Translations under genes and position numbers: made by a program
Part shown: positions 27,402 through 44,377 of the stretch, piece by piece
Layout: each line of letters starts with the position of its first letter
Position numbering within the stretch: the first letter of the stretch is position 1
NCBI RefSeq assembly: GCF_022812285.1
Contig: NZ_CP093300.1
Location: forward strand, 2,108,001-2,172,000
Reading direction: 5' to 3'
DNA from: Alkalihalobacillus sp. LMS39
GTDB taxonomy: Bacteria; Bacillota; Bacilli; Bacillales; Bacillaceae_F
DNA length: 64,000 nt
The notes under the pieces: model-generated
Databases searched by the model: none
What the model was told of the DNA's origin: nothing
Seen by the model: only the letters and a program-made list of their open reading frames with translations

Positions 27402-27429
27402 CTAAAGAAAGGAAAATGAATAGTTTGGG

Positions 27430-27650
27430 AAAAGGTGAAGATGAACGTTATCATTCTTCTAAATGGGAAGTCGGTGAAAGTCCGACGCGGTCCCGCCACT
27501 GTAAGTAGGTTGTTTTTTTAATATCCACTGTTTCAATTCTGAAATGGGAAGGTAAAAAAACGAAAACTACGAGCCAGGAGACCGGCCTTTTCTAACGACA
27601 CTGATTGACCTACGGGAGATAGGAAGGTGTTAGAGAGCGGCGTCTCATCT
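27430..27650 (+). ncRNA. Cobalamin riboswitch
   Basis: The conserved core is clear: GGTGAAAGTCCGACGCGG, CCCGCCACTGTAA (27492-27504) and the B12 box GAGCCAGGAGACC (27571-27583). The P1-closing and accessory regions extend on both sides. It precedes an intrinsic terminator and the cobinamide genes, so adenosylcobalamin should switch the operon off by premature termination. Confidence 0.95.
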
Positions 27651-27688: not shown

Positions 27689-27726
27689 GCATCTCTAACC
27701 CTATCTTTGGGTAGAGATGCTTTTTT
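27689..27726 (+). terminator. Riboswitch expression-platform terminator
   Basis: GCATCTCTAACCC / GGGTAGAGATGC (27689-27701 / 27709-27720) followed by TTTTTT. Located between the riboswitch and cbiH60. Confidence 0.88.
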
Positions 27727-27767
27727 ATGTTTTTTTCATAATAAAGCTAAAAGGAGGAGTTCGCGTG

Positions 27768-29384
27768 ATGACAAATAAAAAAGGGAAGCTGTTAATCGTC
27801 GGGTTTGGTCCAGGTCATGAACAGCATATGACAGCTCGAGCGAGAGAAGCTATTTTAGAAAGCGATTCGATTATTGGCTATAACACGTATATTGATTTAA
27901 TTCGACCATTATTGACAAACCAAGAAATTGTTCGAACAGGCATGACAGAAGAAGTGAGCCGTGCGCAAGAAGCCGTTAAACAAGCGGAGGCAGGAAAAGT
28001 AGTAGCTGTTATTTCAAGTGGTGATGCTGGTGTTTACGGCATGGCAGGACTTGTATATGAGGTGCTCATTGAAAAAGGATGGAAGGAAGAAACAGGTGTT
28101 GCTGTTGAAATTATTCCTGGTATTTCAGCCATTAATTCGTGCGCAGCGCTTCTTGGTGCACCGATTATGCACGATGCCTGTACGATTAGTTTAAGTGACC
28201 ATTTAACTCCATGGGAATTGATTAAACGTCGAGTCGAAGCGGCAGCACAAGCGGACTTTGTCATTGCATTGTACAATCCAAGAAGCGGGAGAAGAACGAA
28301 ACAGATTGTAGAAACACAACAAATTCTATTAAAATATCGTTCTCCTAAAACTCCTGTTGGGCTAGTAAAAAGTGCGTTTCGAGAAAGACAAGTTGTTATA
28401 ATGACAGATTTAGAATCGATGCTAGAACATGAAATTGGGATGTTAACAACAGTCATTATCGGGAATAATTCGACGTTCATGTATGACGGAAAAATCATAA
28501 CGCCACGAGGATATCAAAGGAAATATACCCTTTCAGCTGAAGAACAACCGTTAAAGCCACATCAACGGTTAAAAGAAGAAGCGGAACCATGGGCGATGCA
28601 TCAAGGTCAATCCGAACAAGAGATACCAAAAACAACTTCTGTGCTTGAGTTAGCTGAAGAAGCGCTTGAAAAAGTGATAGGGAAATCTGAAGTAGCAGCA
28701 ACGGAAGTACAAGAAAAATCTGGATCGTTTCAACAAACAGCTGTATTTGAATTTGCGGTGTCACCAGGAATTGTTTCGAAAAAGCTATCACCGAAGCAAA
28801 TGTTAACGTTAGTAGGAGCGGTTGGAGAAGAGGCAACGATTGAATATACACCAGATCATCAGTTGAAAGTGTCTGTTGAAACAAATGATCCAAGTGGGAT
28901 AACGGAAAAATTACGAGCAGAAGGGTTACTTCTCTTACCGATAGGGGATGTTGTAACGATTAAAGCTTGTGATTTCTGTGACGGAGAAAAAGCAGATTCA
29001 ATACCACAAGCAGAAGAACTGCAGCAATTAATTGGGGGAGATAGTGTTCCTAAACAATTGCATATCGGCTTTAATGGCTGTGGCATGGCTTGTTACGGTG
29101 CACCTATGAATGATATCGGTTTAATTTACCGGAAAAAAGCGTTTGATTTATTTATTGGCGCGAAAATAACTGGAAGAAATGCACATGTTGGACAACTTGT
29201 GGCTGAAGGAGTAGCACCAGATAAAATCGTGGAGCTTGTTGTTTCGATCGTTAATGATTATAAAAAACGTGGCTTGCCGAATGAACGTTTTCATAAATTT
29301 TTCAAGAGAGTTCAAAGCGTAGAAGGATTTACATACAAAGAAGTTCCTGATCAAGTTGTTGTAGATGCAGTTTGTGGTGATTAA
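27768..29384 (+). CDS. cbiH60: Precorrin-3B C17-methyltransferase with ring-contraction Fe-S domain (CbiH60)
   Basis: 538 aa. Residues 5-245 are a tetrapyrrole methylase (LLIVGFGPGHEQHMTARA, VVAVISSGDAGVYGMAG, LYNPRSGRR). Residues about 325-538 form a sulfite/nitrite-reductase-like half with likely [4Fe-4S] ligands Cys401, Cys404, Cys438 and Cys442. This is the layout of Bacillus megaterium CbiH60, which methylates C17 and contracts the ring. AAGGAGGAG sets the start at ATG 27768; the longer frame reaches into the terminator. First gene of the operon. Confidence 0.92.
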   Translation: MTNKKGKLLIVGFGPGHEQHMTARAREAILESDSIIGYNTYIDLIRPLLTNQEIVRTGMTEEVSRAQEAVKQAEAGKVVAVISSGDAGVYGMAGLVYEVLIEKGWKEETGVAVEIIPGISAINSCAALLGAPIMHDACTISLSDHLTPWELIKRRVEAAAQADFVIALYNPRSGRRTKQIVETQQILLKYRSPKTPVGLVKSAFRERQVVIMTDLESMLEHEIGMLTTVIIGNNSTFMYDGKIITPRGYQRKYTLSAEEQPLKPHQRLKEEAEPWAMHQGQSEQEIPKTTSVLELAEEALEKVIGKSEVAATEVQEKSGSFQQTAVFEFAVSPGIVSKKLSPKQMLTLVGAVGEEATIEYTPDHQLKVSVETNDPSGITEKLRAEGLLLLPIGDVVTIKACDFCDGEKADSIPQAEELQQLIGGDSVPKQLHIGFNGCGMACYGAPMNDIGLIYRKKAFDLFIGAKITGRNAHVGQLVAEGVAPDKIVELVVSIVNDYKKRGLPNERFHKFFKRVQSVEGFTYKEVPDQVVVDAVCGD

Positions 29385-29406
29385 AAAATAATAAGGGGTT
29401 GTTTAC

Positions 29407-30288
29407 ATGGATGCCATTTTATTTATTGGACATGGTAGTAAAGTAAAAGAAGGAAATGAACAAGTATTACAATTTGTAGAATCAATGAGACAAGGTATCA
29501 AGGTTCCGATTGTAGAAACCTGTTTTTTAGAGTTTGCGAAACCGACAATTCCAGCAGGTATCGATGCAGTTGTTGCTAAAGGTGCGACAAGAGTTGCTTT
29601 AGTTCCAATGATGTTCTTTTCAGCAGGACATAGTAAAATACACATTCCTCATGAAATTGATGAAGCAAAAGAAAAATACCCTCATGTCCAATTTACATAC
29701 GGTCGTCCGATTGGAGTCCACGATAAATTATTTGATATTTTAGTAGGAAGATTACAAGAAGTCGGATTTGCGCCTACTGAATATGATGAGAAAAAGGCCG
29801 TACTGCTCGTTGGTCGCGGGAGTAGTGATGCAGATGCAAATAGTGAACTTTATAAAATATCGAGATTATTATCAGAACGTTTGCATATGACAAACGTCGA
29901 GTTATCTTTTATTGGGGTGACGAGCCCAACCGTAGAAGAAGGAATCGAACGCTGTTTGAAGTTAGATGCAACATCAGTTTATATTGTTCCATATTTCTTC
30001 TTTACGGGAGTGCTAATGGAAAGAATGGAAGAAAAACGGAGACAGTTTGTTGCTGACTATCCAAACTTTGAATTTCATATGACGTCATTTTTTGGTTTTC
30101 ATCCTGAATTAAAAACGATTTTTATTGACCGGGCATTGGAAGCTTTAGAAGGTGAAGCAAAATTAAATTGTGATGTATGTCAATACCGTCTTCATGCATT
30201 AGAACATATGGATGTGCATCACCACCACCACGACCATGATCATGATCATCACCATCATCATGACCATGAACACGAGCCTGTAAAGTAA
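29407..30288 (+). CDS. cbiX: Cobaltochelatase CbiX (long form, His-rich tail)
   Basis: 293-aa sirohydrochlorin cobaltochelatase with two chelatase halves (AILFIGHGSKVKEGNEQV and AVLLVGRGSSDADANSEL). The C-terminus carries CDVCQYR followed by a tail of about 24 residues rich in His and Asp (HHHHHDHDHDHHHHH), presumably metal-storing. The same features, including an Fe-S site near the CxxC, are known from B. megaterium CbiX. It inserts cobalt at the start of the anaerobic pathway. Confidence 0.93.
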   Translation: MDAILFIGHGSKVKEGNEQVLQFVESMRQGIKVPIVETCFLEFAKPTIPAGIDAVVAKGATRVALVPMMFFSAGHSKIHIPHEIDEAKEKYPHVQFTYGRPIGVHDKLFDILVGRLQEVGFAPTEYDEKKAVLLVGRGSSDADANSELYKISRLLSERLHMTNVELSFIGVTSPTVEEGIERCLKLDATSVYIVPYFFFTGVLMERMEEKRRQFVADYPNFEFHMTSFFGFHPELKTIFIDRALEALEGEAKLNCDVCQYRLHALEHMDVHHHHHDHDHDHHHHHDHEHEPVK

Positions 30289-30302
30289 AGGAAGGGATAA
30301 CA

Positions 30303-31073
30303 ATGATATTTTTGCTTGCAGGTACGAGTGATGCGAGAGAACTAGGTTTGATGCTTCAGCAAGAAGGATATGATCTTGTAACCTCTGTCGTGACAGAAAA
30401 CGCAGGAGAAGTGATGAAGCAACATGGCCTTCGTGTTTTAGTAGGACGATTGGATGCCAAACAATTAATAAGTGTCGTTAGCGAGAATGAAGCTTCTATT
30501 ATTGTTGATGCAACACATCCATTTGCAGAGGAAGCGTCGAAAAATGCGATGGCGGCAGCAAGTCAGCTTGAAATTCCTTATATTCGATTTGAACGAAAAT
30601 CATTTGAAGGGCAAGATTCTCTTATCACTGAAGTAGCCTCTTATGAGGAAGCTGCCGTTCTTGCGGCAAACCGTGGTGGAGTCGTTATGCTAACAACAGG
30701 AAGCAAAACCCTTCAAGTGTTTGCAAAGCATTTATTGCCACTTGAGAATGTTAGAATGATTGCAAGAATGCTACCAAGAAAAGACAATATGGAAAAGTGT
30801 GAACAACTAGGAGTCGAACAAAAAAATATTGTTGCGATTCAAGGACCGTTTTCAAAGCAATTAAATCAAGCCCTTTACATGCAGTATAGTGTAACCCAAG
30901 TTGTTACAAAAGAAAGCGGGAAAGTCGGCTCAGTTGATGAAAAAGTAGAGGCGGCAAAAGAGCTAGGGATTCCTATTATTATGATTGCTAGACCAAAAAT
31001 AGAGTATGGGAATGTGTATCATTCTTTTGAAGATATCATAAATACGATTAAAACGATGGAGGTGTCGGTGTAA
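30303..31073 (+). CDS. cbiJ: Cobalt-precorrin-6A reductase CbiJ
   Basis: 256 aa. IFLLAGTSDARELGLML gives the nucleotide-binding start and IIVDATHPFAEEASKNA the family motif; TTGSKTL follows. It reduces the macrocycle after ring contraction. Its stop overlaps the cbiC start (TAATG). Confidence 0.9.
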   Translation: MIFLLAGTSDARELGLMLQQEGYDLVTSVVTENAGEVMKQHGLRVLVGRLDAKQLISVVSENEASIIVDATHPFAEEASKNAMAAASQLEIPYIRFERKSFEGQDSLITEVASYEEAAVLAANRGGVVMLTTGSKTLQVFAKHLLPLENVRMIARMLPRKDNMEKCEQLGVEQKNIVAIQGPFSKQLNQALYMQYSVTQVVTKESGKVGSVDEKVEAAKELGIPIIMIARPKIEYGNVYHSFEDIINTIKTMEVSV

Positions 31074-31723
31074 TGGATTTTCAAACAGAATTTAAACCGT
31101 TAACAGTACAACCGCAGGAAATAGAAGGAAAGAGTTTTGAGATGATTGATGAGGAAGTGGGAGAGCACTCTTTTACAGAAGAACAATATAAAGTGGTCCA
31201 ACGAATTATTCATGCTTCAGCAGATTTTGAATTAGGAAAAAGTGTAGTGTTTCATCCAAATGCAGTGCAAGCTGGAATTGAAGCAATTCGTTCAGGAAAA
31301 ATGGTTGTTGCCGATGTACAAATGATCCAAAGTGGTATCAGTAAGCCACGAATTGAAAAATATGGTGGACATGTTCGTGTGTATATTTCTGATGAAGATG
31401 TAATGGAAGAAGCGAAACGCTTAAATACAACAAGAGCGATTATTTCGATGCGCAAAGCAATTAAAGAAGCAGAAGGTGGGATTTTTGCGATTGGAAATGC
31501 TCCTACCGCTTTATTGGAACTCATCCGTCTAGTGAAAACAGGGGAAGCTCGTCCAGGATTAATTGTTGGGATGCCGGTTGGATTTGTGTCTGCTGCTGAA
31601 TCAAAAGAAGAATTAGCGAAATTAGATGTTCCTTTTATAACGAATATGGGTCGAAAAGGTGGAAGTCCTGTAACCGTTGCTGCGGTTAATGCGATTTCTT
31701 TATTAGCGCAAAAGCAGGGATAA
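31073..31723 (+). CDS. cbiC: Cobalt-precorrin-8 methylmutase CbiC
   Basis: 216 aa. The catalytic His is in QRIIHASADFE; later FAIGNAPTALLELIRL and GMPVGFVSAAESKEEL are characteristic. Moves the C11 methyl to C12 to form cobyrinate. Overlaps cbiJ by 1 nt. Confidence 0.93.
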   Translation: MDFQTEFKPLTVQPQEIEGKSFEMIDEEVGEHSFTEEQYKVVQRIIHASADFELGKSVVFHPNAVQAGIEAIRSGKMVVADVQMIQSGISKPRIEKYGGHVRVYISDEDVMEEAKRLNTTRAIISMRKAIKEAEGGIFAIGNAPTALLELIRLVKTGEARPGLIVGMPVGFVSAAESKEELAKLDVPFITNMGRKGGSPVTVAAVNAISLLAQKQG

Positions 31724-31724
31724 A

Positions 31725-32849
31725 ATGAAAAAGCAAACAAAAGACCCGAAGGAAATGAGACGCGGCTATACAACAGGTGCAAATGCAACAGCAGCAACGA
31801 AAGCGGCATTAATGTCTTTATTGTTACAAACAAAAGTACGGACGGTTGAAATTACGTTACCAATAGGGGAAGACATTTCTTTTTCAATGGAAGAAGTAAT
31901 GTTTACTCAAAAGGAAGCCTCTGCGAGTGTCATTAAAGATGCTGGTGATGACCCTGATGCAACACATAAAGCAAAAATTGTGTCAACAGTTACATTTACG
32001 AGTAAAGAGGGCATCGAAATTGATGGTGGAATTGGAGTGGGCCGGGTGACGAAACCTGGTCTTCCTGTTCCTGTCGGGGAAGCGGCAATTAATCCGGTTC
32101 CTCGCAAAATGTTAAAGGAAACGGTTCAAGAATTACTAGAACACTTTGGTGTCTATCAAGGAATCCGTGTTGTCATTTCTGTTCCAGACGGGGAAGAGAT
32201 TGCAAAAAAAACATTAAATGCAAGGCTTGGCATTATTGGCGGAATTTCGATTTTAGGAACTCGAGGGATTGTTGTACCATTTTCTACTTCTGCTTACCGT
32301 GCGAGTGTGGCCCAAGCGATTAATGTTGCTGTGACAAATGGGTGTGAGCGATTGTTTTTAACAACGGGTGGACGAAGTGAAAAATATGCAATTGCATTAT
32401 ACCCTGACCATCCTGAAGAAGCCTTTATTGAAATGGGTGACTTTGTCGGCTTTGCCCTTAAGCAATGTAAAGCAAAAAAAGTGAAGCACGTAACCCTTGT
32501 AGGTATGATGGGGAAATTTTCAAAGGTTGCTCAAGGAATTATGAATGTCCATTCTAAAAGCGCACCTGTTGATTTTAATTTTTTAGCAGATGTGGCAAAG
32601 GATGCTGGTGTGGAAGAAAGCTTATTAGATGAAATTAAACAAGCCAATACCGCATCACAGGTCGGAACGATGATGTTTGAACATGGTTATTCCTCATTTT
32701 TTTCAAAGTTATGTCAATACGGTTCTGAATCAGGATTAAAAGAAGTTCGAGGCGGAATGGAAATCGAAACGATTATTACGTCAATGCAAGGAGATGTATT
32801 AGGGAGGGAAACAGTGTCATGGGACAACCTATCAAAATCATCGGAGTAA
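31725..32849 (+). CDS. cbiD: Cobalt-precorrin-5B C1-methyltransferase CbiD
   Basis: 374 aa with [18 protein letters not shown] at the N-terminus, [18 protein letters not shown] and [12 protein letters not shown], all family signatures. It starts 1 nt after cbiC. Its last 31 nt overlap cbiET. Confidence 0.93.
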
Positions 32850-34024
32850 CGGAAAGTGGCATCGCTAGCTTGCCTCAACAGTACCGAGAATGGATTGAAG
32901 AAAGTGAACAATTAGTTGGTGGTGAACGTTTGTTAGATTTTTTTCCTTCTTATAAAGGAGAAAAGATTGTTGTGAAATCTGGCCTTTCAAAGATGGTGGA
33001 GACACTTCAACAAACATCCAAAAAAACAGTAGTCTTAGCTTCGGGTGATCCGTTGTTTTTTGGGATTGGTGGGTATTTAGCAAAGAAAATTGATGTTGAG
33101 ATTTATCCTAATATTAGTTCGCTTCAACAAGCGTTTGCCAAAATGAAGGAAAGCTGGCATGATTGTTTCTTTGTCAGTGTCCATGGCCGCAATATTAAAG
33201 GACTCGCGCAAAAAATCGATGGCCATGAAAAAGTTTGTCTGTTAACAGATGAAACAAATACCCCGAAAGCAATTGCCTCTTATTTACTTGAATTTGGAAT
33301 GGATGAATATGAGGCTTTTATTGCAGAAACGGTTGGAGGAGAGTCTGAAAAAACAACGTTTATGACACTATCAGACATGATGTCATATGACGCCCACCCG
33401 CTAAATGTAGTCATTTTAAAACGAAAAAAAAATCGGGAAAAATGGGCTTTAGGAATTCCAGATGAAGAATTTTCTCAACGAAAGCCGGATAAAGGGTTAA
33501 TCACGAAAAAGGAAATTCGTGTATTGAGCTTATCGGAATTACAATTACATAAATCAAGTACTGTTTGGGACATCGGGACGTGTACAGGTTCGATGGCGAT
33601 TGAAGCAGCAAGAATCGCAAAAGAAGGACAAGTATTTGCGATTGAAAAAAATGAAAGTGACTTGCAAAACTGCTATGAAAATATGAAAAAATTTCAAGCT
33701 GATATTACCGCAATTTGTGGGAAAGCCCCTGCTAGATTAAATGAGTTTCCAGACCCGGATGCTATTTTTATCGGGGGAACAGGCGGTGAAATGAAAGAGT
33801 TATTATCAGTTTGTGCTAGTCGATTAAAGCCGCATGGGCGGATCGTGTTAAATGCAGCTACGATTGAAACGTTATATGAGGCAACAGAAATTTTAAAGCA
33901 ATTGAAATTAAAGGTTTCGATAACACTCGCACAAATTTCAAGAAGTAAACCAATTTTACATATGACTCGATTTGAAGGATTGAATCCTGTTTACATTATT
34001 ACAGCAGCAAAAGAGGAGGAGTAA
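32819..34024 (+). CDS. cbiET: Cobalt-precorrin-7 methyltransferase/decarboxylase CbiET fusion
   Basis: 401 aa. Residues 1-200 are the CbiE methylase ([31 protein letters not shown]). Residues about 215-401 are CbiT ([34 protein letters not shown]). Together they methylate C5 and C15 and decarboxylate ring C. Start ATG 32819 is set by AGGGAGGG (32801-32808), inside cbiD. Confidence 0.92.
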
Positions 34025-34025
34025 T

Positions 34026-34733
34026 ATGCCACTAGGAACCGTTTATGGTGTAGGAGTTGGTCCAGGAGACCCGGAATTAATTACGGTAAAAGCGTACCGA
34101 ATGATGAAGGAAGCGGATGTTGTCGCTTATCCGAAAAAACGAAAAGGGGCAAAAAGTTACGCGTATCAAATAATTGAGCAATATGTGAATCCAAATGAAA
34201 AAGAAATGTTAGGGTTAGTTTTTCCGATGACAAAGGATAAAGACGTCCTTGCACGAGAATGGAACCGAATTGTTGAGCAAGTATGGATTTATGTAAAAGA
34301 AGGGAAGTCGGTTGCATTTGTTACGGAAGGTGACCCGATGTTATATAGCACCTTTATTCATTTGTACCGTTTGCTAAAACAAAAATATCCCGAAGTAGAA
34401 GTGAAATCAATTCCAGGCATATCATCTGTAAATGGAGTAGCCTCACAATTAGGAATTCCTCTAGCTGATGGAGATGATTGGACAGCGGTCATTCCTGCAA
34501 CAGAGAATAGAGAGGCCATGAGAAAAGCATTAAAAGACCATGATGGTATCGTATTTATAAAAGTAGCGAAAGTGCTACCGATGATGATTGAACTACTAGA
34601 AGAGCTTGAACTCGTTGACAAAGCTACGGTTGTGACGAAAGTGACTTCCAGTGAAGAAGTCGTATGGAAAGATATAACGGAACTTCGCCATGCGGATTTA
34701 GAATATTTAACACTAATGCTCGTAAGAAAGTAA
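34026..34733 (+). CDS. cbiL: Cobalt-factor-2 C20-methyltransferase CbiL
   Basis: 235 aa: GTVYGVGVGPGDPELITVKA, AFVTEGDPMLYSTFIHL and IPGISSVNGVASQLGIPLA are typical of the CbiL/CobI branch. Adds the C20 methyl that is later lost in ring contraction. 1-nt gap to cbiET. Confidence 0.93.
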   Translation: MPLGTVYGVGVGPGDPELITVKAYRMMKEADVVAYPKKRKGAKSYAYQIIEQYVNPNEKEMLGLVFPMTKDKDVLAREWNRIVEQVWIYVKEGKSVAFVTEGDPMLYSTFIHLYRLLKQKYPEVEVKSIPGISSVNGVASQLGIPLADGDDWTAVIPATENREAMRKALKDHDGIVFIKVAKVLPMMIELLEELELVDKATVVTKVTSSEEVVWKDITELRHADLEYLTLMLVRK

Positions 34734-34743
34734 GGTGACTAAA

Positions 34744-35532
34744 ATGGAATTAGAAGCAAAAGTTTATATTGTTGGATCAGGTCCTGGAGACCCAGATTTA
34801 ATTACAGTAAAAGGATTAAAAATACTCGAGAAAGCCGATGTCATTTTATATACAGACTCTCTTGTAAATCCTGTGTTAATGGAAAGAGCGAAAAAAGATG
34901 CTCTTATTTTTAAAAGTGCTGGGATGAATTTAGAAGAATTAGTAGATTGTATGGAAGAACATGTAAAAAGCGGAAAAAGTGTTGCGCGAATGCATACGGG
35001 AGACCCGGCAGTGTACGGTGCGATTTATGAACAAATGAAAAAGTTAAAACAACGTGGCATTGCTTATCAAATCATTCCTGGCGTTAGTTCTGTTTTTGCT
35101 GCAGCGGCAGCCGCTGAAGTGGAATTAACGATTCCAGAATTAACGCAAACCGTCATTTTAACGCGAGCAGAAGGTCGAACCCCGATGCCAGAAAAAGAAC
35201 AACTAAAAGATTTAGCTGCTCATCATTGTTCCATCGCCTTATTTTTAAGTGCAACATTAATAAAAAAAATCGTAAAAGAGTTTTTAGAAGCAGGATGGAA
35301 CGAAGAAGATGCGGTCGTTGTAGTGTATCGCGCTTCATGGCCAGATGAAAAAGTTGTTCGCACAACGTTAGGATCTCTTGATGAAACGATGCGAAAAGAA
35401 GGAATTCGTAAACAAGCGATGGTCATTATTAGTAAAGCAGCAGATGAAGCGCTTTTAGAAGAAGGAACGTTTGAGTCAAAGCTATACGATAAGTCCTTTA
35501 CGCATGGTTATCGTAAAGGAGAAAGTGTGTAA
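34744..35532 (+). CDS. cbiF: Cobalt-precorrin-4 C11-methyltransferase CbiF
   Basis: 262 aa: KVYIVGSGPGDPDLITVKG, MHTGDPAVYGAIYEQM, IIPGVSSVFAAAAAAEVELT (split at SV) identify CbiF. ATG 34744 is preceded by TAAGGTG; a GTG at 34735 is upstream but overlaps that site. The stop overlaps the cbiG start. Confidence 0.93.
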   Translation: MELEAKVYIVGSGPGDPDLITVKGLKILEKADVILYTDSLVNPVLMERAKKDALIFKSAGMNLEELVDCMEEHVKSGKSVARMHTGDPAVYGAIYEQMKKLKQRGIAYQIIPGVSSVFAAAAAAEVELTIPELTQTVILTRAEGRTPMPEKEQLKDLAAHHCSIALFLSATLIKKIVKEFLEAGWNEEDAVVVVYRASWPDEKVVRTTLGSLDETMRKEGIRKQAMVIISKAADEALLEEGTFESKLYDKSFTHGYRKGESV

Positions 35533-36608
35533 TGGAAAATATTGCATTAGTCGCAATTACAAAACACGGTGTTCAAATGGTGCGGAAATTACAAGAAAGC
35601 ATACAGACGGCGGACGTATATTATATGACAAAGTTCGAACATGGCGATGAAAAGGAAAAAGGCATTTATATGTTTGAAGGTTCTGTTCGGTTAATTTTAC
35701 CTGATTTATTTAAAAAGTATGATGGTATTGTAATGGTGATTTCACTTGGTGCTGTTGTTCGCATGATTGCACCAATATTAAAAGATAAAAAAACAGACCC
35801 TGCCGTTGTTGTTGTCGATGATAAAGGACAGTTTGTCATCAGTGTGCTATCTGGTCATATTGGTGGAGCAAATGAGTTAACGCACGAATTATCAGAGCAC
35901 TTACAAGCGACACCTGTTATAACAACGGCATCTGATGTCAATAAAACGATTCCTGTTGATATTTTCGGACGAGAATTTGGCTGGATTGTCGAGTATGAGA
36001 AAAAAGTCACACCAGTGAGTGCAGCTGTTGTGAATGAAGAACCGATCGTCATCGTTCAAGAATCAGGAGAGCGGAACTGGTGGAAACATAATAAGCCACT
36101 TCCGTCACAAATGAAAGTCGTCTCAAGCTGTAAGGAGGCGATGATGCTTGATTTTTCCGCAGCTTTAGTTATTACCCATCGGCTGTTAACAGAAGACGAA
36201 CAATCGATGCTGTTACAAAATGGTGTCCTATACAGGCCGAAGTCAGTGTATTTAGGAATTGGCTGTAATCGTGGGACGAGTGCCACAGAAATAAATGCTG
36301 TCATAGATGAAACATTATATGAATTAGGCATCTCAAAAACTTCTGTAAAAGGAATTGCCACGATTGACTTAAAAAAGGATGAAGAAGGCTTGCTCGACGT
36401 GTGTGAGCAAAATAAGTGGACGTTTCAATATTTTACACCGTTAGAGCTAAACGCGGTTCCGATTTCAAACCCATCAGAAACCGTTTTTAAATATACTGGG
36501 GCATACGGGGTGAGTGAACCTGCTGTTTTATTAGCATCTGGTGCAAAGCAACTAACATTAGAGAAGAAAAAAAGTGGGAATGTAACGATTTCGATTGCAG
36601 TGAAGTAA
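35532..36608 (+). CDS. cbiG: Cobalt-precorrin-5A hydrolase CbiG
   Basis: 358 aa. VMVISLGAVVRMIAPIL and FVISVLSGHIGGANELTHEL mark the N- and middle domains; the C-terminal domain begins LGIGCNRGTSATEI. Opens the delta-lactone and releases acetaldehyde. Overlaps cbiF by 1 nt. Confidence 0.93.
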   Translation: MENIALVAITKHGVQMVRKLQESIQTADVYYMTKFEHGDEKEKGIYMFEGSVRLILPDLFKKYDGIVMVISLGAVVRMIAPILKDKKTDPAVVVVDDKGQFVISVLSGHIGGANELTHELSEHLQATPVITTASDVNKTIPVDIFGREFGWIVEYEKKVTPVSAAVVNEEPIVIVQESGERNWWKHNKPLPSQMKVVSSCKEAMMLDFSAALVITHRLLTEDEQSMLLQNGVLYRPKSVYLGIGCNRGTSATEINAVIDETLYELGISKTSVKGIATIDLKKDEEGLLDVCEQNKWTFQYFTPLELNAVPISNPSETVFKYTGAYGVSEPAVLLASGAKQLTLEKKKSGNVTISIAVK

Positions 36609-36625
36609 GAACGGAGGGGTAGTGT

Positions 36626-38011
36626 ATGCAACGAAGAATTGTGATTGCGGGGACAAATAGCGGAGTCGGGAAAACAACGCTGACATTAGGGTTAATGTCA
36701 GCACTCCGTCAGCGTGGCTTGGTCGTTCAAGGATTTAAGTGTGGTCCAGATTATATTGACCCTAGCTATCATACTGCTGTAACAGGTCGACATTCCCGTA
36801 ATGTTGATAGCTGGATGTTAGAGCATGATGTAGTGAAAGAAGTGTTTTCATCTGCTTCCCAAGGCGCGGATATTGCGATAATTGAAGGAGTTATGGGGGT
36901 TTATGATGGAAAAAGTCCAGAGAGTAATACAGGAAGTACGGCTGAAATCAGTCAACTTCTGGAGTCTCCCGTTCTTTTAATTGTCAATATTAGTAGTATG
37001 GCAAGAAGTGCTGCAGCCATTGTGAAAGGGTTTCAGATGCTTGATGAGTCCATTACAATTGCAGGTGTCATCGTAAACCAAGCGGGAAGTAAAGGTCATT
37101 ATGAACTTTGTAAAAAAGCGATTGAAAAAGAATGCGGTGTGAAAGTGCTTGGGTACTTATTAAAAGGAGATACACCAAAGATTCCTTCTCGTCATTTAGG
37201 GTTAATTCCAGCAATTGAAAGAGGAGAATTAGATGGTCTGTTTACAGAGCTAGGAGAAAAAATCGCTGAACGAATTGACCTTGATGCTGTTGTTCATATT
37301 TCAGAACAAGCGCAAGAAATCAAATACGATCCGGTGTTATTTTCTGACGAGTTAGTAAAACCAACAGTGAAAATTGCAGTTGCCCATGATGCTGCCTTTA
37401 ATTTTTATTATGAAGAAAATTTGCATTTGTTGCGACAAGCAGGAGCAGAGTTAGTTTATTTTAGTCCTCTTGCAGGTGAAACATTACCTAAGCAAGTGGA
37501 TGGATTGTACATCGGTGGAGGATTCCCTGAAGAGTTTGCTAAAGAACTTTCTGAACATACAGAATTACAAGATGACATTCGAGCCGTTGCGCGTGAGCTC
37601 CCTATTTTTGCGGAATGTGGCGGATATATGTATTTAACTGAGCGCATTATTACAACTGATGGTCAATGTTATCCAATGGTCGGGGTTATTCAAGGAGAAG
37701 TCACAATGCAATCAAAGCTTGCAGCTTTAGGATATCGGGAAGTCACGTCACTTCAAGACAATATTATTTTGCAGTCTGGCGAAAAAGCAAGAGGACATGA
37801 GTTTCATTACTCGACATTTGCTTGTGCAAATGACAACAAGCAAAAGGCGTATCATGTGAAAGCTCTTCGGAAAGATGGAGAAGAAGGGTACTCCTCAGAA
37901 AATATTGTTGCAGGATATACTCATCTTCATTTTGGGTCAAACCGAAATATTGCAAAAAGGTTCGTTCGTGCTTGTGAAACATATCAGCAAAAGAGAGGAA
38001 GCAAAGGATGA
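36626..38011 (+). CDS. cbiA: Cobyrinate a,c-diamide synthase CbiA
   Basis: 461 aa. N-terminal P-loop-like ATP site (VIAGTNSGVGKTTLTLGL), GFKCGPDYIDPSYH, and a C-terminal class I glutamine amidotransferase domain with the nucleophile Cys in FAECGGYMYL and GHEFHYS. Amidates cobyrinate at a and c. GGAGGGG precedes ATG 36626. Confidence 0.94.
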   Translation: MQRRIVIAGTNSGVGKTTLTLGLMSALRQRGLVVQGFKCGPDYIDPSYHTAVTGRHSRNVDSWMLEHDVVKEVFSSASQGADIAIIEGVMGVYDGKSPESNTGSTAEISQLLESPVLLIVNISSMARSAAAIVKGFQMLDESITIAGVIVNQAGSKGHYELCKKAIEKECGVKVLGYLLKGDTPKIPSRHLGLIPAIERGELDGLFTELGEKIAERIDLDAVVHISEQAQEIKYDPVLFSDELVKPTVKIAVAHDAAFNFYYEENLHLLRQAGAELVYFSPLAGETLPKQVDGLYIGGGFPEEFAKELSEHTELQDDIRAVARELPIFAECGGYMYLTERIITTDGQCYPMVGVIQGEVTMQSKLAALGYREVTSLQDNIILQSGEKARGHEFHYSTFACANDNKQKAYHVKALRKDGEEGYSSENIVAGYTHLHFGSNRNIAKRFVRACETYQQKRGSKG

Positions 38012-39054
38012 GAAAGCTAGATGAAATCATTCAAGCGATCGAACCGTTAAACAAATCGGTGATGGAAAAAGTCGCTAATCATATTGACAACTTGACGAAG
38101 CCAGTCGGTTCATTAGGAAAAATCGAGCAATTAGCAATTCAATTAAGTGGGATAACGGAAGAAGAAAAGCCAAACGTCTCAAATCCTGCTGTTATTGTTG
38201 CTGCTGGTGACCATGGCATCGTAGCAGAAGGTGTTTCGGCTTATCCCCAGGAAGTAACACAGCTCATGCTGGCTAACTTTATAAAAGGAAAAGCTGCGAT
38301 TAATGTTTTTGCCAATCAAATCGGTGCTTCGGTGTATGTTGTTGATGTCGGTGTAAAAGGTCCGGTTGATATCCAAACGGTCATGCAGTGCAAAGTGAAA
38401 AATGGAACAAATAATTTTTTACATGAAGCTGCAATGACAGAAGAAGAAGCCCTTGAAGCAATCCAAGTAGGGATAGATGTCGCTGAAACTTTAATTAAAA
38501 ATGGTCATAAGCTTTTGATTACTGGTGAAATGGGCATTGGAAATACGACTGCGAGTAGTGCTGTTTTTGCAGCGCTTACAAATGAGAAAATAGAAGATGT
38601 CGTTGGGGTTGGAACAGGTTTAACAGCTGATGCGTTACATCATAAAGTCAATGTCATCAAACAATCACTCGAAAATCGAAAACCAACTTCATCTAATCCG
38701 CTTGATGTGTTACATAAAGTAGGTGGGTTAGAAATTGCAGCATTAACAGGGGTCATATTAGCAGGAGCAAAAAAACGAGTTCCTGTTTTAATCGATGGAT
38801 TTATCTCTTCAGTTGCCGCTCTTGTTGCGACAAGTTTTTGTCCAGTTATCCATGATTATTTGATAATAAGCCATCAATCTGCTGAACGAGGTCATTATCT
38901 GTTACTGCAACAATTAAAACAAGAACCGCTACTTTCATTAGGGTTGCGTTTAGGAGAAGGTACGGGAGCCGCTCTTGCTTATCCACTGTTACTTGCGGCG
39001 ACAAAGATCGTATCGGAAATGGCAACATTTGAAGAGATGGGAATACAAAAATAA
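38008..39054 (+). CDS. cobT: Nicotinate-nucleotide--dimethylbenzimidazole phosphoribosyltransferase CobT
   Basis: 348 aa: LTKPVGSLGKIEQLAIQL, VAAGDHGIVAEGVSAYPQ, GEMGIGNTTASSAV and RLGEGTGAALAYPLL are hallmark CobT motifs. Activates the lower-ligand base. The start overlaps the cbiA stop by 4 nt. It ends the cobalamin operon as I read it; no intrinsic terminator follows before the next promoter. Confidence 0.94.
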   Translation: MRKLDEIIQAIEPLNKSVMEKVANHIDNLTKPVGSLGKIEQLAIQLSGITEEEKPNVSNPAVIVAAGDHGIVAEGVSAYPQEVTQLMLANFIKGKAAINVFANQIGASVYVVDVGVKGPVDIQTVMQCKVKNGTNNFLHEAAMTEEEALEAIQVGIDVAETLIKNGHKLLITGEMGIGNTTASSAVFAALTNEKIEDVVGVGTGLTADALHHKVNVIKQSLENRKPTSSNPLDVLHKVGGLEIAALTGVILAGAKKRVPVLIDGFISSVAALVATSFCPVIHDYLIISHQSAERGHYLLLQQLKQEPLLSLGLRLGEGTGAALAYPLLLAATKIVSEMATFEEMGIQK

Positions 39055-39072
39055 AAACGTTTTGAAAAAAGG

Positions 39073-39101
39073 GTGACAAGTTTCTACTAAAATTATATAA
39101 T
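39073..39101 (+). promoter_or_regulatory. Sigma-A promoter of the Zur-controlled transporter operon
   Basis: GTGACA (39073-39078), 17 bp, TATAAT (39096-39101). The predicted start near 39108 falls inside the Zur operator. Confidence 0.7.
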
Positions 39102-39103
39102 CT

Positions 39104-39124
39104 AAATCGTAATAATTACGATTT
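39104..39124. promoter_or_regulatory. Zur operator
   Basis: A perfect 10-1-10 inverted repeat with core TCGTAATAATTACGA, which equals the Bacillus Zur consensus TCGTAATnATTACGA. A Fur box would read TGATAATnATTATCA. It begins 2 bp after the -10 element, so bound Zur would block transcription when zinc is sufficient. Confidence 0.85.
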
Positions 39125-39143
39125 ATTAAAAGGTGAAAAGGTT

Positions 39144-40220
39144 ATGAATCAGACAGGACCAATTAAAAATCGAATCTCGTTTTCATTGTTGCTACTTGTT
39201 TTAATGATTTTATTGCTTTTGTCTATGACGTTTGCAGTTATGATTGGCCCGGTGTCTATTCACCCTCTTACGGTTTGGCAAATTCCACTTTCAAAGCTTT
39301 CAATTTTTGAAACTGCATTTGCCCAAGACTGGACAAGGGCGCAAGAACAAATCATATGGGAAATTCGATTTCCTCGGGTAATTTTAGGTGTGTTAGTCGG
39401 AGCAGGATTAGCTGTTGTGGGAGTTACAATACAAGCTCTTGTCCGCAATCCTTTGGCAGAGCCGTTTATTCTCGGGATCTCTTCAGGTGCATCTGTAGGA
39501 GCAACGATGGTCATCGTGTTTGGAGCGTTTTCCATCTTTGGTTCATATGCGGTTTCGTTAGCTGCTTTTTTGGGAGCATTACTATCTGTTTTCTTCGTTT
39601 TTTTCTTAGCTCAAGTTCAAGGAAGAATTTCAACGGTTCGCTTACTATTAGCAGGGATTGCGATTTCTATGATGTTAAGTGCATTAACGAATTATATCGT
39701 TATCTCGGCACCACGAGCTGAAGGAATTCGAGATGCGATGTTTTGGATGATGGGTAGTCTAGCAGCTGCTAAATGGAGTCAACTGTTCATTCCGACAGTT
39801 ACGGTGATCGTGGGACTAGCTATCCTTCTTTGTTTATCAAGACCATTAAATTTATTACTTTTAGGAGAAGAAGCTGCATCTCATTTAGGGTTGAACAGTA
39901 ATGTATTTAAAAAAATTCTTATCGTACTAACCGCATTATTAACAGGTGTATTAGTAGCGTTAAGTGGTGCGATTGGTTTTGTCGGTTTAATGATTCCTCA
40001 CATTGTCCGGTTATTAGTTGGGTCTGATCATCGTCGTGTACTCCCTGTTAGTGCGTTACTAGGTGCAATTTTTTTACTTTGGGCTGATGTTGTTGCAAGA
40101 ACGATAGTTGCGCCACAAGAACTACCTATTGGGATTGTTACGGCCATTTGTGGAGGTCCATTTTTTATTTGGCTATTACGAAGAAGCAATTATTCTTTTG
40201 GTGGAGGTGGTTCAAAGTGA
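39144..40220 (+). CDS. FecCD/BtuC-type ABC permease
   Basis: 358-aa membrane protein with about ten spans. Family signatures include WEIRFPRVILGVLVGAGLAVVG split around VGA, QALVRNPLAEPFILGISSGAS and GFVGLMIPHIVRLLVGSDHR. This class imports siderophores, haem, corrinoids and other metal chelates. AAAAGGTGAAAAGG precedes the ATG. First gene behind the Zur box; the ATPase gene overlaps its stop. Confidence 0.92.
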   Translation: MNQTGPIKNRISFSLLLLVLMILLLLSMTFAVMIGPVSIHPLTVWQIPLSKLSIFETAFAQDWTRAQEQIIWEIRFPRVILGVLVGAGLAVVGVTIQALVRNPLAEPFILGISSGASVGATMVIVFGAFSIFGSYAVSLAAFLGALLSVFFVFFLAQVQGRISTVRLLLAGIAISMMLSALTNYIVISAPRAEGIRDAMFWMMGSLAAAKWSQLFIPTVTVIVGLAILLCLSRPLNLLLLGEEAASHLGLNSNVFKKILIVLTALLTGVLVALSGAIGFVGLMIPHIVRLLVGSDHRRVLPVSALLGAIFLLWADVVARTIVAPQELPIGIVTAICGGPFFIWLLRRSNYSFGGGGSK

Positions 40221-41038
40221 CATTAAAAGCGTCCAATGTAGCAGTGCAAATAGAGAAAACGATGATTATTCAAAATCTATCTCTTCATTTACATGAAGGA
40301 GAATTTATCGGATTAATTGGTCCAAATGGAAGTGGAAAATCTACCTTTTTAAAAACATTATATCGGTCATACTTTCCATTGCAAGGGACAGTGACCCTTT
40401 ATAATAAAGAGTTACCTTCATACTCTTTTCGTGCGTTTGCGAAAGAGGTGGCTGTAGTAACACAGGAAAGTAGTGTCCCGTTTGACTTTAGTGTACTTGA
40501 AATCGTGTTAATGGGCCGTCATCCACACCAACGCTTTTTTTCAAAAGAAGAAAAGAAGGATTATGATGCGGCATATGAAGCTCTTGCCTCTGTTGATTTA
40601 ACTGATTATGCCGAGCGAAGTTTTTCATCTTTATCTGGTGGAGAGAAACAGCGCGTTTTGATTGCAAGAGCGCTAGCGCAACAAACGAATATATTGCTTT
40701 TAGACGAACCGACGAATCATCTAGATATCCATCATCAATTGCAATTGTTAAATACAGTGAAAAACAGTGGCTTAACTGTTGTTTGTGCGATGCATGACCT
40801 TAATTTAGCGGCAGCGTATTGTGATCGGATCATCGTAATCAACAAAGGGGAAATGGTCTTTGAAGGAACGCCGAATGAAGTCATAACTGAACAGATGTTA
40901 AAAGAAGTGTTTGAAGTAGATACCGTTGTTATTCGCCACCCACAAACAGGAAAGAAACAAATTTTATTTACTCCAGAAGATGAACTCCAGTCTTTGGTCG
41001 TACCAATGGAACGAAAACGAGAACGGAGTGGGTTGTAA
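40217..41038 (+). CDS. ABC transporter ATPase (FecE/BtuD type)
   Basis: 273 aa with Walker A (GPNGSGKST), signature LSGGEKQRVLIARAL, Walker B LLLDEPTNHLD and the switch His in CAMHDLN. The true start is GTG 40217, after GGAGGTGG (40203-40210) and overlapping the permease stop by 4 nt; the upstream in-frame stretch is the permease read in another frame. Confidence 0.93.
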   Translation: MTLKASNVAVQIEKTMIIQNLSLHLHEGEFIGLIGPNGSGKSTFLKTLYRSYFPLQGTVTLYNKELPSYSFRAFAKEVAVVTQESSVPFDFSVLEIVLMGRHPHQRFFSKEEKKDYDAAYEALASVDLTDYAERSFSSLSGGEKQRVLIARALAQQTNILLLDEPTNHLDIHHQLQLLNTVKNSGLTVVCAMHDLNLAAAYCDRIIVINKGEMVFEGTPNEVITEQMLKEVFEVDTVVIRHPQTGKKQILFTPEDELQSLVVPMERKRERSGL

Positions 41039-42085
41039 ATGAGTGTGTATACTTGTTCTTTTTGCCAATTTACGTATGATGAGTGGCATGGTGATAGTAA
41101 AAATGGCATTCCAAAACAAACGCAATTTTCAGCGCTATCTGGTAGCTTATGCTCCCGTTGTGGTATGCAAGGAGAACGTCATCAAAGACAACCGGTAACT
41201 TCGTATAAAGGTGAAGAAGCAAAAACATTTGATCTGTTTGCTGGGAAAGCTGGAATTTCATTTTATATGGAATGGCTGCACTCATCTAAAGATCCGGTTA
41301 CTTTATTAGAGCTTGGATCGGGAACAGGAAGAATGACGGTCCCCTTTTTACAAAAAGGGATTCACGTTCAACCCATCGATGTTAGCCATGAAATGAATGA
41401 AATCGCAAAGAAAAAACTTGAACGCCTCGACCTACCAATTACGATTATCGAAGAAGATATTCTTTCACTTCAGCTAGAGGACACGTATTCTCATATTCTA
41501 CTTGCGGATGGATTTCTTCAACATTTTCTAACGATAGAAGAGCAAAAAAAATTGTTAGCCTTTGTTTATTCTCATGTAAAGCAAGGCGGCCAAATAGCGC
41601 TTGATATTATAGTTCCGCCAAATACAAAGTGGAAAACGGTAAAGAAGAAGCGAATGACAAATAAAAAAACAGTTATGCAAACAATAGAAGGAGAAGCCAC
41701 ATTTAGTAAACAACTAATGGTGTGTGCGACTATGATTACGAGTGTAGTCGACGGTTATATTGACACTACTTATCATGTAGAAAGAGAATATAGTCTACTT
41801 ACGCCAAGAGAAGTCGTTTATTTACTTGAAATCGTCGGCTTTGACATCATAAACATGACGGAAAACTATAAAGCACAACCATGGGAAACTGTTGTACCAG
41901 CTTCATTACAAAAACAAAAGCCTGATTTGCCCATAGATCAAACATTAGTAGAACAAGATCAAGATTCGAATCTACATCCTTATGTTGAAAATGTTTGGTC
42001 AACTGGCCATTACATATATCAAGAGGAAGAACAAAGAGAATGGACAACGGTCACAATTTTCGCAAAAAAGAAAGAGGAGAGATAA
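41039..42085 (+). CDS. Rubredoxin-domain / class I SAM methyltransferase fusion
   Basis: 348 aa. Residues 1-45 form a rubredoxin-like metal site: Cys6-x2-Cys9 ... Cys38-x2-Cys41 with NGIPKQTQFSAL between, close to the spacing of true rubredoxins (6, 9, 39, 42). Residues about 75-345 are a Rossmann methyltransferase with motif I LLELGSGTGRMTVPFL and ILLADGFLQHF. The rubredoxin site could hold Fe or Zn. It lies directly between the transporter ATPase and the binding protein, so it likely acts on the imported compound or its chelator. Substrate unknown. Confidence 0.8.
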   Translation: MSVYTCSFCQFTYDEWHGDSKNGIPKQTQFSALSGSLCSRCGMQGERHQRQPVTSYKGEEAKTFDLFAGKAGISFYMEWLHSSKDPVTLLELGSGTGRMTVPFLQKGIHVQPIDVSHEMNEIAKKKLERLDLPITIIEEDILSLQLEDTYSHILLADGFLQHFLTIEEQKKLLAFVYSHVKQGGQIALDIIVPPNTKWKTVKKKRMTNKKTVMQTIEGEATFSKQLMVCATMITSVVDGYIDTTYHVEREYSLLTPREVVYLLEIVGFDIINMTENYKAQPWETVVPASLQKQKPDLPIDQTLVEQDQDSNLHPYVENVWSTGHYIYQEEEQREWTTVTIFAKKKEER

Positions 42086-42088
42086 AAG

Positions 42089-43066
42089 ATGAAAAAAATC
42101 GTATTTTTATTAAGTTTACTCATATGGATAACGGCTGGTTGTGGGCAAGAGACAACAGGAGAAGAAGGGAACCAAGAAAAACAAGAAGCAAACGAATCAT
42201 ATGGTGTTGTTGAAATTGAAAATAATGGGCGGACTTTACAATTTGATGAAATTCCAAAGCGTGCTGTTACATTAAATCAACATGTAACAGAAATCATGTT
42301 AGCATTAGGGTTAGAGGATCATATGGTTGGTACAGCTTTTATCGATGATGAGATTTTAGAAGAGTATAAAACTGCATATGAGAGTATCCCGGTGATTGCA
42401 GACCAGTATCCAAGCCAAGAAGTGTTTTTAGAGCAAGAACCAGATTTTGCCTATGCGGGTTGGGCTAGTGCGTTTCGCGAAGATAATATTGGAACAGTGG
42501 AGCAATTAGAGGAGTTTGGCATTCATGCGTACCTTCATGAATCATCGACTATCATCGGTCCAACAGTTGAGGATATTTATACAGATATCCGAAACATCGG
42601 AAAAATTTTTAAAGTTGAAGATCGTGCTGAAGCATTAATTGAAGAGATGGAAGCGAGAATCGAAAAGAAAAAAGAAGAGATTCCACAAGGCGCTGTTGGA
42701 AAGCAAGTGTTCATTTATGATAACGGAGAAGCGGCCCCTTTTACGTCAGCTCGAAACTTTTTAAATGAACTTATTTCTTTAACAGGGGCTGAAAATGCGT
42801 TTGCTGATATCGATAAAAACTGGGCGGAAGTTAGTTGGGAAGAAGTAGTTGAGCGAAATCCTGATCTTATTGTCATAATTGATTACGGTGAAACAACAAT
42901 AGAAGAGAAGAAGAATATTTTACTTAATCATCCTGCTCTTACCGATGTTCCTGCTGTGAAAAATGAACATTTTATTGTCATCCCACTCTCGTCTGCAGCA
43001 GAAGGTGTTCGTATTCCAGATGCCTTTGAATTACTAGTGGATGGGCTCATTGAAAATGGATTTTAA
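42089..43066 (+). CDS. Periplasmic-binding lipoprotein (FepB/BtuF class)
   Basis: 325-aa lipoprotein with signal peptide and lipobox ITAGC (Cys18). The mature part is a class III binding protein: GRTLQFDEIPKRAVTLNQHV split at P, TEIMLALGLEDHMVGTAF, and DLIVIIDYGE; the central long helix is rich in Glu/Lys. It would deliver the ligand to the FecCD-type permease. AGAGGAGAG precedes the ATG. Confidence 0.9.
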   Translation: MKKIVFLLSLLIWITAGCGQETTGEEGNQEKQEANESYGVVEIENNGRTLQFDEIPKRAVTLNQHVTEIMLALGLEDHMVGTAFIDDEILEEYKTAYESIPVIADQYPSQEVFLEQEPDFAYAGWASAFREDNIGTVEQLEEFGIHAYLHESSTIIGPTVEDIYTDIRNIGKIFKVEDRAEALIEEMEARIEKKKEEIPQGAVGKQVFIYDNGEAAPFTSARNFLNELISLTGAENAFADIDKNWAEVSWEEVVERNPDLIVIIDYGETTIEEKKNILLNHPALTDVPAVKNEHFIVIPLSSAAEGVRIPDAFELLVDGLIENGF

Positions 43067-43080
43067 TGCTGAGGTGCCAC

Positions 43081-43926
43081 ATGAAAATTGATGTAAACGA
43101 CAAAGTTGATTTTGTTCATTTATGGCAAGAGGGGATGAAAGGGTGGAATGGGCAAATGCCAGAACGAATGGTTAATGACGAGTTAGAAGATTCGTTTTGG
43201 AAAGAAGTTGTTATGAGAAAATCACTAGACCCGAAAATGGACGAGCATGTCATTCCACTTTTTACAAAATTAAAAACTCATATAAAGTCATCTGATCATG
43301 TGTTAGAAATTGGTCCTGGATGGGGAAATTATACTTTTTCATTGTTGCCAGACGTGAATACTTTAACATGCATTGATAGTTCAAGTCATATTGTCGAATA
43401 TTTACAACAAGTTAAAAATGAAAAAAAAGGGACTCAGTTAGAACTTATCCATCACAAGTGGGAGGAATGGGACAAGACAGAAAAATATGATGTAGTTTTC
43501 GGAATAAATTGTTTTTACCGTATGTATCATATTAAAACGGCATTACAAAAGATGAATGAAACAGCCCGTCGCCTAGCGATTATTGGAATGACAACAGGCC
43601 CGATGAGACCGCATTATCTTGAATTATTACAAACAACGAATCTTGCTATTAATATACCGAGAAGAGATTATATTCACTTACTAAATATTTTATATGAATT
43701 AGGAATATATGCACAATGTGAGACCGTTGAGCTTCAACGTACGTTCACATATCATTCCTATGAAGAGTTAATTAAAGCAAATACGATAAAAATAAGAGAA
43801 GAAAAGTATGATCGAAGGCTGGTCGAAAAAGTGATTGAAAAATATTCTTATTATCAAGACGGAAAATATTATTATCCTCATCAATTTCATGGTGTTTTAT
43901 TGCATTGGCAACCGAAAAATCAATAA
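43081..43926 (+). CDS. Class I SAM-dependent methyltransferase
   Basis: 281 aa. Motif I is VLEIGPGWGNYTFSLL (about residue 80); VVFGINCFYRMYHIKTAL follows. It has an N-terminal helical cap (VDFVHLWQEGMKGWNGQMPE). Start ATG 43081 follows GAGGTG; an in-frame ATG at 43066 overlaps the binding-protein stop. Different subfamily from the rubredoxin-methyltransferase upstream. It appears to be the last gene of the Zur-controlled unit; substrate unknown. Confidence 0.8.
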   Translation: MKIDVNDKVDFVHLWQEGMKGWNGQMPERMVNDELEDSFWKEVVMRKSLDPKMDEHVIPLFTKLKTHIKSSDHVLEIGPGWGNYTFSLLPDVNTLTCIDSSSHIVEYLQQVKNEKKGTQLELIHHKWEEWDKTEKYDVVFGINCFYRMYHIKTALQKMNETARRLAIIGMTTGPMRPHYLELLQTTNLAINIPRRDYIHLLNILYELGIYAQCETVELQRTFTYHSYEELIKANTIKIREEKYDRRLVEKVIEKYSYYQDGKYYYPHQFHGVLLHWQPKNQ

Positions 43927-43996
43927 GTGTTGTTCATTGATTCCTAATTGAAATCATATTACACTAGCAACATGACCAGTAGAAAGAGGGATATCG

Positions 43997-44332
43997 TTGA
44001 AACCGATTAGGATAGTAATTGGCATTGGTGTTTTTGTACTCCTCCTTAGTAGTTTTCTCATTCAAACGACACCAAAGGCTCCTATGAATACAAGAATGAT
44101 TGTTGACCATACGTATGGGGTTTACATTGCACCTCCTTGTTTTAATGATGCGGAAGTAACGAATTATTTAGAAGAAACGACATTGGGACGAGCGATTGAA
44201 ACAGGATATGAACCTGAATCTATTTGTACGGAAAATTCGTTAACCGCCGAAAATCAGCCTTGGATATACAATATGTTTGAAAAAATTGGGTTTATTCAAG
44301 GGAAATGGGACCGTGATGGCGAATGGAAATAA
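43997..44332 (+). CDS. Small secreted or membrane-anchored protein
   Basis: 111 aa from TTG 43997, 6 nt after AAAGAGGG. An N-terminal hydrophobic segment (residues 4-22) is a signal peptide or anchor. The extracellular part has two cysteines (APPCFND and ESICTEN) that could form a disulfide. I do not recognise a family. Its 70-nt distance from the methyltransferase without a terminator leaves co-transcription open. A terminator follows. Confidence 0.65.
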   Translation: MKPIRIVIGIGVFVLLLSSFLIQTTPKAPMNTRMIVDHTYGVYIAPPCFNDAEVTNYLEETTLGRAIETGYEPESICTENSLTAENQPWIYNMFEKIGFIQGKWDRDGEWK

Positions 44333-44346
44333 GAGAATAGTTGACG

Positions 44347-44377
44347 AGGTACTCGATTTTGAGTACCTTTTCTTTTT
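44347..44377 (+). terminator. Terminator
   Basis: AGGTACTC / GAGTACCT (44347-44354 / 44361-44368) followed by TTTCTTTTT. Confidence 0.8.

Follow-up and report, generated by a model that had tools for sequence, protein, structure and literature searches.

A Zur-boxed FecBCD-type import operon with a rubredoxin-methyltransferase follows the cobalamin operon of Alkalihalobacillus sp. LMS39 and may serve cobalt uptake

An import operon with a perfect Zur operator

Why should an import operon that lies directly behind the cobalamin biosynthesis genes carry an operator of the zinc regulator Zur? The question is raised by a gene group of Alkalihalobacillus sp. LMS39, studied here within a window of 64,000 nucleotides (the whole stretch of DNA analysed; contig NZ_CP093300.1, positions 2,108,001 to 2,172,000 of the forward strand). 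Our answer is tentative and held at close to even confidence: the operon may be an accessory FecBCD-type (type II) importer with its own S-adenosylmethionine (SAM) methyltransferase, bringing in cobalt, likely as a chelate, for B12 synthesis, and being switched on when either B12 or zinc is low. The observations behind it comprise the operator, a promoter-like sequence, the gene order, cobalamin and Zur signals that are conserved at orthologous loci, and a co-occurrence with corrin synthesis. The features of the operon, in window positions, are as follows.

39073..39101, + strand: sigma-A promoter GTGACA-17-TATAAT, 11/12 consensus matches
39104..39124, no strand assigned: Zur operator AAATCGTAATAATTACGATTT, a perfect 10-1-10 palindrome
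39144..40220, + strand: FecCD-type permease (permC; PF01032, 7e-100)
40217..41038, + strand: ABC ATPase, its GTG start overlapping the permease stop (PF00005, 4.9e-34)
41039..42085, + strand: RubMT, a rubredoxin domain plus a class I SAM methyltransferase (Pfam Rubredoxin, Methyltransf_25)
42089..43066, + strand: FecB-type substrate-binding lipoprotein, here SBP (Pfam Peripla_BP_2)
43081..43926, + strand: MT2, a second class I SAM methyltransferase (PF13649, 1.2e-8; Pfam Methyltransf_25)
43997..44332, + strand: 111-aa protein, hydrophobic near its N terminus as judged by eye, found conserved after SBP or MT2
44346..44369, + strand: terminator-like stem-loop of 10 pairs, then TTCTTTTTAC, the probable end of the unit

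The gene content named in the original prediction, a permease, an ATPase, a rubredoxin-methyltransferase, a lipoprotein and a further methyltransferase, is borne out by the Pfam matches (FecCD, ABC_tran, Rubredoxin plus Methyltransf_25, Peripla_BP_2 and Methyltransf_25), and the sequence confirms its perfect 10-1-10 Zur operator at a likely sigma-A start point. The -35-like GTGACA occupies 39073-39078 and, after a spacer of 17 nt, TATAAT occupies 39096-39101; the operator begins 2 nt past this -10 hexamer, so the likely transcription start lies under the box. The promoter is the top promoter-like match within 27000-45500, where such matches are overall no more frequent than chance would give (52 versus 49.1 expected).

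The operator itself is well above chance. None of 300 resamplings of the upstream region gave a match as good as the observed box, and a scan of the whole genome (4.85 Mb) with the 21-mer, allowing up to 3 mismatches, returned 10 sites versus 1 for the reversed control pattern, with 39104-39124 being the sole perfect site. The 15-mer core alone, again with up to 3 mismatches, has 4 matches in the window versus a chance mean of 4.45, so only the match with 0 mismatches counts. The other nine genomic boxes belong to an operon with a CntA-type substrate-binding protein and CntE, one COG0523 gene, znuA, the stretch separating an S14 gene from a nikA-type operon (three boxes), two further COG0523 genes, and folE2/COG0523. 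As expected of a Bacillus-type Zur regulon, the box of the operon thus has company in other zinc-starvation genes carrying the same box. Judged by sequence, the ten boxes together form a genuine Zur regulon, and the predicted zinc control of the operon is supported.

The operon also has a probable second source of transcripts in the cobalamin operon upstream of it.

27416..27604, + strand: cobalamin riboswitch heading the cobalamin operon (Rfam RF00174, 112.5 bits versus a gathering threshold of 31.5)
27717..39054, + strand: cobalamin biosynthesis operon, 11 tightly spaced open reading frames (ORFs), grouped by their spacing and ending in cobT

The final gene, cobT (TIGR03160, 449 bits), ends at 39054, and a CbiC match lies within the operon at position 2139118 of the host genome (G000). 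From 34905 to 39549 the scan shows the + strand to be free of terminator-like sites, so read-through into the import operon is possible, as the original prediction had proposed; such sites overall do not exceed the number that chance predicts (10 versus 12.1 expected), each being weak alone. At the other end, the transcription unit probably runs on past MT2 through the 111-aa gene to the stem at 44346-44369.

Cobalamin and Zur signals at orthologous loci

We read 31 distinct RubMT loci (numbered L; genomes are numbered G). The SBP is present in 30 of them and the permease and ATPase in 29, the stretch of L128 holding only RubMT and SBP. A cobalamin riboswitch precedes the locus in 19/31; in 6 of these 19, RubMT follows other genes and is 1.4-4.6 kb away from the ATPase. 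Another nine are located within or after a cob operon, seven of them by BLAST matches to the cob genes of the window and two (L083 and L086) by eye, which brings the loci with a cobalamin link to 28/31. Those without one are L071 (a second copy in G005), L085, and L141, which begins at a contig end and was left out of the upstream tests.

Among the 30 upstream regions that were tested, 13 carry a Zur box (13 in a set of 23 operons and 0 in 7 more), and boxed and unboxed regions are well separated, with 0-5 mismatches versus at least 7. All seven RubMT operons read in the host's own genus and family carry a box with 0-3 mismatches. The other boxed RubMT loci are six from Paenibacillus, and none of the remaining groups tested has one. 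By sequence, zinc control as originally predicted is supported for the genus, the family and these Paenibacillus; 17/30 orthologous upstream regions have no Zur box. With these 17 unboxed regions and 19/31 loci behind a riboswitch, cobalamin appears to be the wider theme across the orthologs and zinc a lineage-specific addition; the outcome that the original prediction named as speaking against it, orthologous operons that are unboxed and cobalamin-linked, is observed for many orthologs. One of them is in A. marmarensis, where a gene read as cobO precedes the operon and a Zur box is absent.

The promoter is kept less widely than the box. The sister-species locus L069 retains both, the box with 0 mismatches. 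In five of 15 boxed regions (the window, L069, L188, L130 and L132) a promoter match of 10-11/12 is found whose -10 hexamer precedes the box by 2-8 nt; the other 10 reach only 7-9/12, as do most matches in G003-G006, where boxes with 0-3 mismatches precede permC. Three Paenibacillus loci (L130, L132 and L133) have riboswitch and Zur box in series, the box lying 201-220 nt behind the riboswitch and adjoining a promoter-like sequence, TTGCNA-17-TATAGT. This is as expected of a second promoter, suggesting two switches of which the second would be able to start its own transcript. Three further Paenibacillus have the box before the SBP, in a different gene order.

Zinc and cobalamin control are thus joined on one operon in two arrangements, the series of the three Paenibacillus RubMT loci, shared by one further FecBCD operon, and a cob operon with a Zur promoter at its end. 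The further case is a second FecBCD operon of G005 (L182 469-8895), where a cobalamin riboswitch and then a Zur box stand in the same series; it also includes a COG0523 gene, an MT2 homolog and a permease with distant similarity to SO_0444 exporters.

A term search of two Zur reviews turned up no cobalamin or cobalt importer among the Zur targets (PMC6103462, PMC8000910). Several Fe/B12-type ABC genes rise modestly in zinc-depleted Paracoccus, with no Zur motifs marked in the excerpt (PMC5387054), and the B. anthracis Zur regulon, as excerpted, includes a permease and no operon of the present kind (PMC6336718).

Co-occurrence with corrin synthesis

The substrate is best approached through the company that RubMT keeps. 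A class survey of 398 genomes, with at most 5 candidates scored per genome, so that misses are possible, gave RubMT matches in 22 genomes. The matches of G428 and G336 and a second match of G436, which have no rubredoxin, were left out, and G073, which has the rubredoxin part alone yet carries SBP, permease, ATPase and riboswitch, was kept, leaving 20 RubMT genomes. CbiC is found in all 20 versus 139/398 overall (hypergeometric 3e-10 by genome) and, counted by genus, in 7/7 versus 59/146 (P 0.0014); that the RubMT, CbiC and BtuF-like surveys cover the same 398 genomes rests on shared genome labels. A further set has CbiC in 31/31 genomes, including RubMT genomes from outside the survey, among them Enterococcus sp. 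PF1-24, and also including G002, which has MT2 but no RubMT. As a control, a BtuF-like SBP is present in 296/398 genomes at E 1e-15, at least 157 of them without CbiC, the query possibly netting some other FecB-type proteins as well. B12-type SBPs, on these counts, are not confined to corrin makers. Since RubMT is found in the survey only with corrin makers and BtuF-like SBPs are widespread, a substrate for B12 synthesis, most simply cobalt, is indicated.

The original guess at a zincophore or a corrinoid is thereby shifted: as RubMT accompanies de novo B12 synthesis, cobalt destined for B12 is preferred to both a zincophore and preformed B12, the zincophore coming out weaker and the corrinoid staying a live rival. 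What speaks against cobalt is the distribution of CbiM, which is found in 19/20 RubMT genomes versus 57/119 other corrin makers, counting only strong matches (91 of 107 listed genomes). This prevalence weakens the cobalt case, for it makes another cobalt importer look redundant, a point in favour of corrinoid import.

Relation to known importers

The nearest characterised importer is probably the CbtJKL cobalt ABC system of S. meliloti, which was initially assigned to cobalamin transport but carries Co(II), with an adenosylcobalamin riboswitch controlling it; the same source, as excerpted, describes cobalt uptake as generally found in de novo B12 makers (PMC7689651). On pSymB (L199 21247-25332) a cobalamin riboswitch is followed by an SBP, a permease, an ATPase and, 3 bp on, a SAM methyltransferase, and this FecBCD run is probably cbtJKL. 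The window operon shares with it the FecB/FecC/FecE build, the B12-maker setting, a SAM methyltransferase gene, and an SBP nearer to TIGR03868 than to BtuF. A cobalamin riboswitch stands directly before the 19 orthologous loci mentioned above; the window operon itself would come under such control only by way of the one lying 11.5 kb upstream. It differs in that the S. meliloti methyltransferase has no rubredoxin domain and that no Zur control is reported for CbtJKL in the excerpt of the same source.

The SBP scores 203 bits with TIGR03868 and 58 with the BtuF model, and the S. meliloti protein (probably CbtJ) 183 and 26.5 bits, whereas the host's own BtuF-like SBP scores 77 and 119; both host proteins stay below the BtuF cut-off of 234. 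The SBP matches the S. meliloti protein, itself only probably CbtJ, at 5e-31 and 27% identity, and the tree does not join the two. In this tree three BtuF rows group in a separate clade (92/81) with the SBP outside, a placement of modest support with long-branch warnings.

Other systems share single traits with the operon. BtuFCD is likewise a type II ABC importer, and orthologs of the window operon have the B12 riboswitch, whereas the host has a separate BtuFCD-like operon and RubMT goes only with corrin makers in the survey. The models of a putative F420-0 transporter (TIGR03868/03869/03873) are the best NCBIfam match for permease and SBP and the third for the ATPase, all below cut-off (permease 302/437, SBP 203/392, ATPase 261/372 bits). 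Staphylopine-type metallophore systems (CntA, CntE) are comparable through Zur-boxed metal-chelate import in the host genome, but CntA belongs to the SBP_bac_5 family and the operon SBP to Peripla_BP_2, so the latter is not an SBP of the Cnt type. A K. pneumoniae plasmid (L201 3628-9876) carries a TIGR03868-like FecBCD operon with a SAM methyltransferase and an adjoining ZigA-like (COG0523) GTPase. Its SBP is 32% identical to the window SBP, and a Zur-like palindrome precedes a COG0523-like remnant, whereas BLAST relates the methyltransferase to neither RubMT nor MT2 at a significant level; a cobalamin riboswitch was not found in L201. It may correspond to the Zur-regulated cluster on pLVPK, described in an excerpted source that links COG0523 to zinc (PMC2770081).

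Proposed mechanism

From these observations we infer a substrate, roles for both methyltransferases, a methylated compound, the OR logic and any transport of zinc. Low B12 would relieve the cob riboswitch, and the transcript would run through into the import operon; low zinc would lift Zur, and transcription would start at the promoter 39073-39101. The SBP would bind a metal complex outside the cell, to be imported by permease and ATPase, and RubMT would methylate the ligand, whereupon the metal would be released to corrin synthesis. The methyltransferase part of RubMT has an N-methyltransferase fold, as in small-molecule N-methyltransferases, and its N-terminal rubredoxin site of four cysteines (C6, C9, C38 and C41) may hold or sense the metal, or supply an electron. 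A ligand carrying zinc too would account for the Zur control; alternatively, low zinc may raise the need for cobalt. Zur could even sense the imported metal, as it can respond to Co(II) in vitro according to the excerpt of PMC7689651. Instead of providing the OR logic, bound Zur might block read-through.

If true, this reading raises the question of why zinc starvation should call for cobalt. It would also make RubMT a testable enzyme, its rubredoxin-methyltransferase build and its company in B12 makers suggesting chelate unloading or processing.

Alternative explanations

A second corrinoid importer, for cobalamin, cobinamide or a precursor, is possible if on the unlikely side. RubMT and MT2 would process the incoming corrinoid, and B12 would spare zinc, for instance by MetH replacing the zinc-demanding MetE or by sparing tetrapyrrole synthesis. 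The riboswitch and cob-operon linkage of the RubMT loci fits such a role, as does the distribution of CbiM, and the nearest named NCBIfam models of RubMT and MT2 include CpaM, a corrinoid-protein-associated methyltransferase, with scores far below cut-off. The host metE and nrdE lie behind cobalamin riboswitches and MetH is present, so that more B12 would switch off MetE. However, the Zur-boxed genomes G003-G006 have no MetE match, so sparing MetE cannot be the general reason for Zur control. Further points against a corrinoid are the placement of the SBP outside the BtuF clade, the separate riboswitch-led BtuFCD-like operon (with cbiB) that the host already has, and the restriction of RubMT, in the survey, to genomes with corrin synthesis, though non-makers need B12 import most.

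We regard as unlikely a variant in which cobalt and zinc chelates are both imported, the OR gate combining a riboswitch that reports cobalt need with a Zur that reports zinc need, and RubMT freeing the metal by N-methylation of the ligand. SAM-dependent N-methylation as a way of unloading a metallophore was not met in the literature searched.

Import of a zinc chelate, with methylation around the time of uptake and with the cobalamin operon as a mere neighbour, seems improbable. The conserved Zur boxes would suit it, and the host probably handles an opine metallophore: the Zur box at G000:C1:698490-698510 heads an operon (L076 5491-11864) with a CntA-type SBP (948 bits versus a cut-off of 800) and a CntE-type opine exporter (694 versus 235), which makes metallophore use plausible in this organism. 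The K. pneumoniae operon, with its ZigA-like GTPase and Zur-like palindrome, and the pLVPK cluster point the same way. On the other hand, the 17 unboxed orthologs and the 28 cobalamin-linked loci do not fit a zincophore, no opine synthase is seen in the operon, and the lack of significant BLAST similarity in the methyltransferase of the Klebsiella operon loosens that parallel.

It is very improbable that the main role of the Zur box lies with MT2 and the 111-aa protein, or with general metal balance, some lineages having gained the transporter between box and MT2 so that zinc control of the transporter would be incidental. In G002 of the same genus (L188 15434-16714) a perfect box after cobT does lead directly into MT2 and then the 111-aa gene, a transporter being absent. 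However, the transporter follows the box in L070-L074, L083, L085 and L086, with no MT2 found in the stretch read, and in the three more Paenibacillus the box precedes the SBP.

MT2 is found in only 2/31 RubMT loci and, as noted, also in the second FecBCD operon of G005. RubMT and MT2 are, by their distribution, separate modules, RubMT going with the transporter.

Gene details and further observations

The ATPase passes the NCBIfam model NF010068 (heme ABC ATPase; 274 bits versus a cut-off of 261). For MT2 the start at ATG 43081, as in its relatives, is more likely than 43066. The 111-aa protein has no match in a Pfam search, and homologs are present in L069, L070, L073, L074 and L188.

The loci were collected in searches of differing yield. 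One ortholog search matched 61/61 genomes, 7 of them (8 loci) over the full length at E<1e-76 and the rest as generic methyltransferases; another matched 22 loci, 11 being RubMT relatives (L091 weak) and 11 partial matches. Duplicates were counted once (L126 equals L084, L081 equals L069, and L087-L090 equal L073, L074, L072 and L075).

A cobalamin-riboswitch operon of Enterococcus sp. PF1-24 (L091 5673-9796) has rubredoxin and methyltransferase in two neighbouring ORFs. A Zur box with 1 mismatch in G045 (L075 16256-16276) lies before a gene resembling alcohol dehydrogenases, some 4.5 kb away from a riboswitch-controlled RubMT operon. The window also holds a TPP riboswitch at 50217-50327 on the - strand.

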